Part shown: positions 5,414-17,221 of the stretch, in pieces
Position numbering within the stretch: the first letter of the stretch is position 1
Layout of the letters: every line of letters begins with the position of its first letter
Source: a virus
IMG/VR virus record: IMGVR_UViG_3300028897_000551
Coordinates: 1 to 28,102 of that record
Strand: one strand, 5' to 3'
Length of the DNA stretch: 28,102 nt
The notes under the pieces: generated by a model
What the model was told of the DNA's origin: nothing
Databases searched by the model: none
Seen by the model: only the letters and a program-made list of their open reading frames with translations
Position numbers and translations under genes: made by a program

Positions 5414-5442
5414 TTGACATTCATATTAAAAGACATTATTAT
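5414..5442 (+). promoter_or_regulatory. Strong rightward sigma70-type promoter
   Basis: A perfect TTGACA (5414-5419) is followed by a 17-bp spacer and TATTAT (5437-5442). Transcription would start near 5449, giving a leader of about 286 nt before the first rightward gene. Confidence 0.65.
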
Positions 5443-5475
5443 GGTCTTATCTTGCCAATTTTCAATCGCATCCAT

Positions 5476-5503
5476 GGGGCCGTTTTAGCGGCCCCGTCCT
5501 TTT
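5476..5503 (+). terminator. Hairpin with short T tract just after the rightward promoter
   Basis: GGGGCCG (5476-5482) and CGGCCCC (5489-5495) form a perfect 7-bp GC stem with a TTTTAG loop, followed by GTCCTTTT. It begins about 27 nt after the predicted start. The U tract is offset by four bases, so termination may be partial: either an attenuator or the end of a roughly 55-nt RNA. Confidence 0.55.
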
Positions 5504-5914: not shown

Positions 5915-6638
5915 GCATTATAATAATGCACACACCAAAAGAGCATTAATTGAGCTAGAAGAAAAGTTTGGTTTTCACAAAGGTTATTCCATGTATTTTA
6001 GGCTTATAGAATATTGCCATGCAACATGGGATGGCGCGGAGGATTATATTTTCACTGTTTCTAAGAACATTCTCGCTACATTCTTAGGATGTAAGTCGAA
6101 CGTTCTTCGAACGTTCTTAGAACGTTTGCAGAACCTAGAACAAATAAAACTAATTCAATTTGGGAACATCATCAGGATCAGCTTCCCTAAGCTGTTGGAA
6201 ATACAGGATAGAGACTCAAAATATACGCGTAATAAACGCGTTAAGGGCGCGCAAAAAACGACCCTAGATAAAGAAGAAGATAAAGAAGAAGATAAAGAAG
6301 AAGATAAAAATAAACAAAAAGAAAAAGTGTCTGTTAAGGAGTTTGAAAAATTATGGACGATATACCCTAAAAAAGACGGTAAGAAGGCTGCATTGCGGCA
6401 TTTTAAATCCAGTGTAAAGAACAAAGAAGATATTGGTAAAATTAAAATAGCATTGGATAATTATCTTTCTTGCAGCCAAGTAAAGAAAGGCTATATAAAA
6501 AACGGTTCCACGTGGTTTAATAATTGGGAGGATTGGATCGACTACAAGGAGGTTTCCCATGAAAGAAATAAAAGAAACAATGGAAAGATTAAAGAAAAAG
6601 ACTATTCAGCAGGAACCCCAACAGGATTTTTCGATTAA
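5898..6638 (+). CDS. DnaD-like phage replication initiator / replisome organiser
   Basis: The first about 100 residues (MKIWFKHYNNAHTKRALIEL, then KGYSMYFRLIEYCH) are the winged-helix domain seen in phage replisome organisers, with DNA-binding helices around residues 55-80. A charged linker with three DKEE units (about 124-137) leads to a C-terminal module with FEKLWTIYPKKDGKKAALRH (about 149-168) and NGSTWFNNWEDW, common in primosomal proteins that contact the helicase loader. I chose ATG 5898 because it begins the conserved domain. The gene for a DnaC-like loader follows with an overlap. An 11-bp iteron array lies inside the winged-helix coding region, as expected for an origin within an initiator gene. 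Confidence 0.8.
   Translation: MKIWFKHYNNAHTKRALIELEEKFGFHKGYSMYFRLIEYCHATWDGAEDYIFTVSKNILATFLGCKSNVLRTFLERLQNLEQIKLIQFGNIIRISFPKLLEIQDRDSKYTRNKRVKGAQKTTLDKEEDKEEDKEEDKNKQKEKVSVKEFEKLWTIYPKKDGKKAALRHFKSSVKNKEDIGKIKIALDNYLSCSQVKKGYIKNGSTWFNNWEDWIDYKEVSHERNKRNNGKIKEKDYSAGTPTGFFD
6065..6141. repeat. Array of seven 11-bp iterons inside the initiator gene; candidate replication origin
   Basis: Units start every 11 bp at 6065, 6076, 6087, 6098, 6109, 6120 and 6131. The best are GAACGTTCTTC and GAACGTTCTTA; GAACATTCTCG, CTACATTCTTA and GAACGTTTGCA are close, and the third and last are degenerate. The core GAACGTTC is itself a palindrome. Eleven is not a multiple of three, so the repeat is not explained by a peptide repeat, and each unit is one helical turn. 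Confidence 0.7.
6227..6244. repeat. 18-bp exact repeat, copy 1 (copy 2 at 14762-14779)
   Basis: GCGTAATAAACGCGTTAA occurs here and in the gene at 14604. Here the surrounding DNA reads ACGCGT, AATAA, ACGCGT, so two palindromic hexamers flank an AT spacer. In both genes the frame reads RNKRV. Confidence 0.8.
6267..6302. repeat. Three tandem 12-bp repeats
   Basis: GATAAAGAAGAA occurs three times in a row plus a partial copy, coding DKEE units in the linker of the initiator protein. The unit is in frame, so copy number changes would only alter linker length. Confidence 0.9.
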
Positions 6639-7272
6639 TATTGATTTATTAAAAATTCAGGAATATTCAAAAATTGGAATCGGAAAGAAATTTTATTCCA
6701 AAGATTTTGACTCTTTTATTGTCAAAACTGAAATTCAAAAACAAGCAAGGGAAAAAAGCATAAAATTTGTTGAAGACTACATGCATAATTCAGCAAGTGG
6801 ATTAATTTACATTGGGAAACCTGGAACCGGGAAGACTCATTTATGTTATTCTGTTTGCAAGGAAATTATTGAGCATGAAATTTCTAAAGCCGAATATCCA
6901 CAAGACTACAGTTCCAGAATTAGAATTTATAATATAACAAATTTGATAAACGACATAAAATCAACATATACTGGCAAGAGCACAAAAAGTGAATATGATA
7001 TTATGAATTTTTGTAAATCACTTAATTTGTTAATTTTGGATGATTTGGGAAAAGAATATTCAAAAATAGACGCTTTTGGGAATTCTTGGTTTAATGAAAA
7101 GTTGTATAAAATCATCAATGATCGATATGAAAATGAAAAGCCAATAATCATAACAACAAATTTTACAATTTTAGAATTAGAAAACAAAATTGATCCGGCA
7201 ATAATCAGCCGTTTAATAGAAATGTGCGATGGCATAAAATGCGATTGGGAGGATTACAGGAGGCTAAAATGA
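6559..7272 (+). CDS. dnaC-like: DnaC/IstB-type AAA+ helicase loader
   Basis: The 237-residue protein has Walker A GKPGTGKTH (86-94), Walker B LLILDDLG (157-164), sensor-1 TTN (199-201) and the SR arginine-finger pair (217-218). DnaC-type loaders open the replicative helicase ring and place it on the origin, driven by ATP. The N-terminus (MKEIKETMERLKKKT) is a charged helix of the kind that contacts the helicase. An AAGGAGG site precedes the ATG, and the gene overlaps the initiator gene. No phage helicase gene is in the window, so host DnaB is the likely partner. Confidence 0.88.
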   Translation: MKEIKETMERLKKKTIQQEPQQDFSINIDLLKIQEYSKIGIGKKFYSKDFDSFIVKTEIQKQAREKSIKFVEDYMHNSASGLIYIGKPGTGKTHLCYSVCKEIIEHEISKAEYPQDYSSRIRIYNITNLINDIKSTYTGKSTKSEYDIMNFCKSLNLLILDDLGKEYSKIDAFGNSWFNEKLYKIINDRYENEKPIIITTNFTILELENKIDPAIISRLIEMCDGIKCDWEDYRRLK

Positions 7273-7527: not shown

Positions 7528-8016
7528 ATGAAAATTCACTGTAAGTATGATGAGCTGGTTTCTATTATTGATCTAAAAAAACTGTTTAATCCTGAGAATC
7601 CTAATGATCATCCAGATGATCAGATTGATGTGTTAGCAGAGATTATTGAATACCAGGGTGTACGGCGCGAAGCAATTATTTCTAACAGGTCAAATATTCT
7701 AATACAGGGACATGGGCGGATATTGGCTGTCGAGAAGTTAGGATATGAACACTTCCCCGTGACCTTTCAGGACTATGAAGATGCTGACCAAGAATATGCC
7801 GATATGGTCGCTGATAATGCTATTAATCAAAGATCTATTTTAGATTTTAGTAAGATTAATATGAAGGTTCCAGATTTAGGGCCAGATTTTAATATGCAAT
7901 TATTGGGAATAAAAGATTTTGTTGTTGAAGCATTTGACCGTATATCTGAAAAAGAATTTGATGAGAACCTTGATACTGAACACGAATGTCCAAAATGTGG
8001 TTACAAATGGTCATAA
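7528..8016 (+). CDS. ParB/Srx-fold protein with C-terminal zinc ribbon
   Basis: Residues about 14-110 follow the ParB-like nuclease domain used by phage DNA-modification proteins: NPNDHPDDQIDVLAEIIEYQ, then NILIQGHGRILAVEKLGY with the GHGRILA signature (61-67), and EYADMVADNAIN. The C-terminus adds CPKCGYKW, a zinc knuckle (with another Cys pair partly missing). Stand-alone phage ParB proteins often sit beside methyltransferases, as here. A strong AAAGGAGGGGG site precedes the ATG. It is not a partition gene, since no ParA lies nearby. Confidence 0.82.
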   Translation: MKIHCKYDELVSIIDLKKLFNPENPNDHPDDQIDVLAEIIEYQGVRREAIISNRSNILIQGHGRILAVEKLGYEHFPVTFQDYEDADQEYADMVADNAINQRSILDFSKINMKVPDLGPDFNMQLLGIKDFVVEAFDRISEKEFDENLDTEHECPKCGYKWS

Positions 8017-16381: not shown

Positions 16382-17221
16382 ATGGCAAACCAGTTACAGA
16401 ACACTACAAGAAACGATGTGATCATACCAGAGGTATGGTCAAGCAGGTTCTACGACGTCCTTTTGGACAAGCTTCCTTTCATTGATTCTGTTGACAAGTC
16501 CTATGAGGGTGAGATCCAGTCACTTGGGGACATTGTTAACATTTCATCCCTCCCAGAATTTTCGCAAGCTGAGCTTCTTGCTGAAGGTGCGGCTGGAGAT
16601 TCAGAGGCCGTCACACTGACAGGGCAGCAGCTTGTTATCAACAAAAGAGCCTATAAAGACGTTATCGTGACAAAAAAGGCACAACTCCAATCACTCGATT
16701 TCATGGATGAATTGAGAGACAAGATGATTTTTGCAATCCAAAAGAAAATGCAGGCTGACATAATCTCAACCATATCCCCAAGCACTTCAACTCCAGACCA
16801 TGTCATATCTTATGATGCTGGTTCAACCCTCGCGCTTGCGGACATTCTTGAGGCCAAGGAACTTCTTGACACAGCAAACAATGACGAGTCGAATAGGGTT
16901 GGTACTGTTGGTGCAGCACAAATGAATGACCTTTTCAATATCACTGGGTTTATGTCAAGAGATTTCATCCCGGCTGGGAGCCCACTGACAAGTGGTGCTA
17001 TCACAACTCCGATCGCCGGATTTTCAATGAAAATGACTAATATTGTTGGAAACACTTCATATTGGTTTCATCCGTCATTCCTGACATTGGCAATCCAGCA
17101 GGCACTCAATATTGAGACATTCAATCTTGGAGCAGACGGAGTCAGGGGAACCCGTGTTAACGCGGACATTCTTTATGGGGTGAAACAGCTTGGGAATACA
17201 AGAGTTGTTTCTATTGCTTAA
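16382..17221 (+). CDS. Major capsid protein
   Basis: The 279-residue protein begins MANQLQNTTRNDVIIPEVWS and has an E-loop-like LGDIVNISSLPEFSQAEL region (about 47-64), a helix-rich P-domain (FMDELRDKMIFAIQKKMQAD), and a strand-rich A-domain ending GVRGTRVNADILYGVKQLGN. The IPEVWSxxFYDVLLDKLPF opening is shared with HK97-fold coat proteins of the long-tailed phage type. It follows the scaffold gene and has its own promoter-like leader with AGTAGGAGT, as fits a strongly expressed product. Confidence 0.88.
   Translation: MANQLQNTTRNDVIIPEVWSSRFYDVLLDKLPFIDSVDKSYEGEIQSLGDIVNISSLPEFSQAELLAEGAAGDSEAVTLTGQQLVINKRAYKDVIVTKKAQLQSLDFMDELRDKMIFAIQKKMQADIISTISPSTSTPDHVISYDAGSTLALADILEAKELLDTANNDESNRVGTVGAAQMNDLFNITGFMSRDFIPAGSPLTSGAITTPIAGFSMKMTNIVGNTSYWFHPSFLTLAIQQALNIETFNLGADGVRGTRVNADILYGVKQLGNTRVVSIA

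Follow-up and report, generated by a model that had tools for sequence, protein, structure and literature searches.

The initiator locus

The stretch of DNA analysed here (the window) is an IMG/VR virus record of 28,102 bp, in which gene orientation is mainly leftward up to ~5.3 kb and rightward beyond 5.7 kb. The cumulative GC skew reaches its minimum at ~6 kb, a position that coincides with this switch in gene direction, so that the minimum is no independent mark of an origin. Within the rightward-reading part lie a gene for a 246-aa replication initiator and, directly next to it and overlapping its 3' end, a gene for a DnaC-like helicase loader (Table 1). Residues 49–225 of the initiator matched phrog_270 (phage replication initiation protein) at E 1.3e-14 in a profile search, while the Pfam search returned no family at E 0.001 and the PDB profile search no match. 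A promoter-like site, of a kind that is as frequent in shuffled sequence, could conceivably direct transcription towards the candidate origin, and is followed by a terminator-like hairpin (5474–5497). Two genes past the loader, ORF 7528–8016 encodes a protein with a ParB-like domain that matches DNA-methyltransferase and ParB families (phrog_498, phrog_620). At the far left, the leftward ORF 511–996 contains a hexanucleotide tandem repeat (533–715; GCCATC/GCCATT, ~31 copies) that encodes a GYGNGNGDG run and may vary in length.

Table 1 Features of the replication initiator locus in the window
Feature	Coordinates	Strand	Basis or remark
Promoter-like site, TTGACA-17-TATTAT	5414..5442	+	Consensus scan only
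Replication initiator gene, 246 aa	5898..6638	+	phrog_270; AlphaFold2 model
Array 1, 11-bp phased iterons, GAACGTTC consensus	6063..6139	+	Lag-11 self-similarity; synonymous shuffles
Array 2, ACGCGT (6225), ACGCGT (6236), GCGCGC (6247), 11-bp spacing	6225..6252	+	Lag-11 scan
Purine-rich weak-duplex tract, 12-bp repeats (GATAAAGAAGAA)	6254..6338	+	Candidate unwinding element
DnaC-like helicase loader gene	6559..7272	+	phrog_50, E 2.5e-57; Pfam IstB_IS21, E 1.6e-11

The AlphaFold2 model of the initiator (mean pLDDT 81) has a predicted winged helix, comprising a helix-turn-helix (HTH) and a wing, at residues 15–95 (pLDDT ~90), followed by a helix (98–120), a disordered linker (~121–145) and a C-terminal domain (146–213). 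Together with the phrog_270 match and the DnaC-like loader, this bears out the sequence-only reading of the locus as a winged-helix initiator gene followed by a helicase-loader gene. Structural matches to the model included a solved 'initiator' and a Rep–DNA complex among many generic winged helices, as well as many repressors; entries 4pt7, 5kbj and 4pql matched at E 0.025–0.053 in the same company. Structures of pSK41-type Rep proteins are presumably among these weak matches. The initiator is also mosaic, in that relatives L002, L001, L003, L004 and L011, as against L006, L007 and L173, share one or the other half of the protein (N- or C-terminal). An LDKEEDKEED-like linker is kept between differing halves in several relatives; since DKEEDKEE was itself among the search peptides, this conservation is partly a matter of selection.

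Two phased arrays and a purine-rich tract within the initiator gene

The 8-bp cores of array 1 start at 6065, 6076, 6087, 6098, 6109, 6120 and 6131, spaced by exactly 11 bp. Only those at 6098 and 6109 are exact copies of GAACGTTC, and those at 6065 (GAACATTC) and 6120 (GAACGTTT) differ from it by one mismatch. Because the other three (CTACATTC, GGATGTAA and GAACCTAG) match the consensus poorly, what had been described as seven repeat units is better described as four good units within seven phased positions. The 11-bp spacing itself held on inspection of the sequence, as did the occupation of all three codon phases by the cores and the encoded peptide SNVLRTFLERL. Array 1 was the strongest stretch of lag-11 self-similarity in the 28-kb window at every scan width tried, with lag-11 matches at 39/66 positions across the array. 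Its lag-11 strength had a gene-wide p of 3e-4 against 20,000 synonymous-codon shuffles in which the protein was kept, in agreement with the earlier claim that the repetition exceeds what the protein requires. Counts of single GAACGTTC cores in the window were not above chance. The units had also been placed on one face of the DNA; this is approximately the case, since at 10.5 bp per turn a spacing of 11 bp sets each unit ~17 degrees further round. In the AlphaFold2 model, array 1 encodes the predicted HTH helices 56–63 and 67–79, including the recognition helix.

A second array and a purine/AT tract behind it had been overlooked in the sequence-only reading. Array 2, ~130 bp beyond array 1 in the same gene, ranked second in the window for lag-11 self-similarity at most scan widths tried (p 0.017 within codons 100–150). 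The sequences of the two arrays differ, and their shared 6-mers are not above chance (p 0.77). Purine content peaks directly after array 2, where the richest 70-mer of the window lies at 6270. There too, at 6265, is the 60-mer with the weakest duplex in the initiator gene, in the lowest 0.5% of the window, and a tandem repeat occupies 6266–6308 inside this purine-rich tract. According to the model, array 2 encodes the end of helix 98–120 and the purine tract encodes the disordered linker.

Phased 11-bp repeats at the same places in other initiator genes

In a separate line of evidence, an exact scan of IMG/VR for GAACGTTC-N3-GAACGTTC returned 22 contigs. Among the ORFs with 11-bp pairs that were tested, 14/19 belonged to replication-initiation, primosomal or DnaD-like loader families, and these 14 initiator-type ORFs were spread over several otherwise distinct PHROGs; pairs at other spacings fell in initiator-like ORFs in 9/84 cases, by a local phmmer criterion that differs from the one used for the 11-bp set. 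Among the IMG/VR matches listed, exact pairs were not clearly commoner at 11 bp than at other spacings (at least 5 versus a mean of ~3), so that what counts for the argument is the position of the pairs and not their number.

Relatives of the window's initiator in its N-terminal part were collected by protein similarity. Many of them contained 11-bp repeats of other sequence at the same places, with units such as AACTTTTGACC (L189), GAACAATGGCT (L179) and AACTTGCCAGT (L174), and in L187 CGCGC cores at 11-bp spacing stand where the window has ACGCGT. In the closest N-terminal relative, L173, the lag-11 signal was marginal (p 0.05). A second initiator family, whose proteins start MARIRTIKPEFW, was examined in IMG/VR and in named phages. 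Its enterobacterial members have TACSGTA-type units; CTCGCGAG-type units occur in the Mycobacterium smegmatis phages Phrann, Butters and Fishburne and in Propionibacterium phage PFR2, and the unit of Gordonia phage Attis is TGCGCCGACAG. A similar C-terminal domain led to prophage Lj928, whose 11-bp units are of the GGACGTCC type. The lag-11 repeat across the gene was not significant in BK5-T, PL-1, Mx8, PapayaSalad, L177 and L181. In actinobacterial and some enterobacterial phages, motifs were common to both sites (p down to 0.003), which favours a single binding protein for the two.

For a statistical comparison, synonymous-shuffle z-scores were computed for 62 non-redundant initiator genes in three groups and for 143 neighbouring genes as controls. 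Mean lag-11 z was 2.5 in the window family (n=20), 2.6 in the enterobacterial group (n=20) and 2.0 in the named phages (n=22), versus 0.00 in the controls, and the fraction of genes with p<=0.02 was 0.45, 0.55 and 0.41, respectively, versus 0/143. Lag 22 was raised in the initiator genes as well. The lag-11 signal sits in codons ~45–88 (site 1) and 100–150 (site 2), and is weak or absent in the rest of the gene; 16/62 initiator genes, the window's included, reached p<=0.05 at both sites, and 4/143 controls reached this level at each site. Lag 11 had been fixed in advance by the finding, and the two codon ranges were picked after looking. The window's gene is itself among the 62, the genes inside each group are related, so that these counts are not independent events, and the enlarged sets were gathered either with proteins in which repeats were already known or expected or with a hand-composed consensus. 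The same analysis of the lambda O gene recovered its known iterons, which start at codon 116, the place of site 2.

Straight after site 2, other initiator genes have a third, purine-rich array of short period that is out of step with the codons. It lies at ~codons 132–166 in L193, L194, L196, L294–L296, L299–L301 and L303, and at ~codons 117–126 in L192 and many of L214–L293, the unit being 8 bp long in actinobacterial phages (GGGGAACA, for example) and 7 bp long in others (GGGAACA or GGGATCA, for example). Its counterpart at the same place in the window is the 12-bp GATAAAGAAGAA repeat. This third array is possibly a strand-specific unwinding or loading element.

Conservation of the repeats among homologues had been proposed as a check on the origin. 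The repeat sequence is not kept, yet in many homologues the place still holds a repeat of 11 bp that the protein sequence alone would not require; a sequence proper to each lineage at a kept place is what one would expect if binding sites and their binding protein change in step. Other searches for relatives of the locus were negative: no relatives of the helicase loader were found in IMG/VR, no DNA similarity to named phages was detected, a synthetic repeat query gave no match, and of 18 loci with capsid relatives, the 14 whose records were searched held no initiator relative. One record, L012 (IMGVR_UViG_3300002053_000154), has a capsid-region protein with 99% identity to the one encoded at 16382–17221 in the window, and is without the replication region.

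Comparison with known intragenic origins

The origin of lambda lies in gene O, where, as in the lambdoid Stx phages, initiator-binding repeats likewise lie within the gene for the initiator, downstream of the part for its DNA-binding domain; the AT-rich tract that opens adjoins the repeats, and the loader gene comes next (PMC7466680, PMC5043065). The window has repeats that the protein does not account for, a weak tract after array 2 and an adjacent loader gene, as lambda does. Lambda has four iterons of 18–19 bp, spaced 20–24 bp, at one site, whereas the window has an 11-bp unit and two sites, of which the first falls where the winged helix is encoded. Given this difference in period, the window resembles lambda in plan without belonging to the lambda ori family.

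In the RepA_N plasmid pSK41, the Rep boxes are central in the rep gene and are bound by the N-terminal winged helix, and the origin encodes a dispensable linker (PMC5703833). There, however, four Rep boxes occupy one central place in a plasmid, whereas the window belongs to a phage, and the RepA_N domain (Pfam PF06970) was absent from the window's initiator at E 0.001. The DnaD-like initiators of Lactococcus and Lactobacillus phages (BK5-T, PL-1 and Lj928) have a C-terminal domain similar to that of the window's protein, and their genes, like the window's, carry repeat arrays downstream of the part for the N-terminal domain; in BK5-T and PL-1, unlike the window, the periods are 23 or ~45 bp without a lag-11 signal. 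The BK5-T record annotates a repeat_region with a 23-bp period in its initiator gene ORF49 (L199 1331–1412), a precedent with another period. The initiators of Mycobacterium, Gordonia and Propionibacterium phages (Phrann, Fishburne, Butters, PFR2 and Attis), annotated 'RepA-like' or 'replication initiation protein', have 11-bp arrays at one or both of the two sites, with CTCGCGAG or TGCGCCGACAG as the unit. They differ from the window in iteron sequence and in the 8-bp rather than 12-bp repeats that follow, and most of their records are without an origin annotation. The BstA aba element, another intragenic DNA element, was set aside, since its CCCGCC pair lies where an unrelated gene begins (PMC8585504).

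Iteron origins inside a gene are a known kind, of which the arrangement with an 11-bp period and two sites would be a variant. Among the papers covered, mostly those outside subscription, none described this variant, which is weak evidence of its absence; the intragenic origins described there were those of lambdoid phages and RepA_N plasmids.

Candidate origin and alternative readings

Judged from sequence, the region 6063–6338 is very probably the replication origin of this phage, lambda-like in plan and placed inside its own initiator gene. The earlier proposal of an origin within the gene gains support from the initiator and loader families, the predicted winged helix and the repeats of the homologues. 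The arrays might instead be sites of autoregulation or transcriptional control, such as an intragenic operator at which the initiator acts as a roadblock, and not the origin itself. Winged-helix proteins often autoregulate, and the fold search gave many repressors, but the arrays, 165–355 bp into the gene, occupy fixed positions that agree with the domain borders, with a weak-duplex tract and the helicase-loader gene behind them, and the lambda origin has the same position; we consider control sites alone improbable. A double role as operator plus origin is compatible with the evidence.

It is less probable still that the arrays form a partition site (centromere) or an accessory element bound by some protein other than the initiator, for instance one of the ParB-like kind. 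Short phased repeats make up partition sites too, and a ParB-like domain protein is encoded at 7528–8016, but in the phages examined the arrays stay in the initiator gene whatever its neighbours, and their sequence follows the initiator lineage. Chance or replication slippage, by which the three central units would be functionless duplicates, seems just as improbable: although the near-perfect units are those three only, unrelated 11-bp repeats occupy the same places in other phage groups and are seen in 0/143 control genes, and a non-triplet duplication within a conserved domain is unlikely to persist by chance. Least credible is a function in mRNA, as hairpins of paired adjacent palindromic units, because the better-than-shuffled folding of the window's array (z -3.0) is explained by the palindromy of a protein site, whereas the non-palindromic arrays of relatives do not fold better than shuffles (z 0.06, -1.49 and -0.97) and no Rfam match was found.

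By analogy with lambda and the RepA_N plasmids (PMC7466680, PMC5043065, PMC5703833), we infer how the origin would work. The winged helix of the initiator would bind the 11-bp repeats, probably as dimers on the palindromic cores, with one occupied core to each helical turn and all of them facing roughly the same side of the helix. Once several copies are bound, they could wrap or bend the DNA and strain open the adjacent purine/AT tract, after which the C-terminal domain and the loader would bring the replicative helicase to the exposed strand, as lambda O and P do. Array 1 occupies the very codons of the predicted recognition helix, and since the initiator and its putative binding sites lie in the same DNA, the two can drift together.

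On balance, the data favour a bipartite origin design common to phages from several host phyla. In it, a winged-helix initiator gene would have 11-bp iterons in two set positions, one array being spelled by the codons of the recognition helix that reads it, with a purine-rich unwinding tract of short repeats coming after them; the iteron sequence would turn over freely while period and position are kept. The origins of most phages, and of uncultured phages above all, are unknown, and a rule of position and period that needs no motif would permit their prediction from sequence. It would also offer defined targets in laboratory phages, for example those of M. smegmatis, and make testable the question of co-evolution in a protein that reads sites inside the codons of its own recognition helix.
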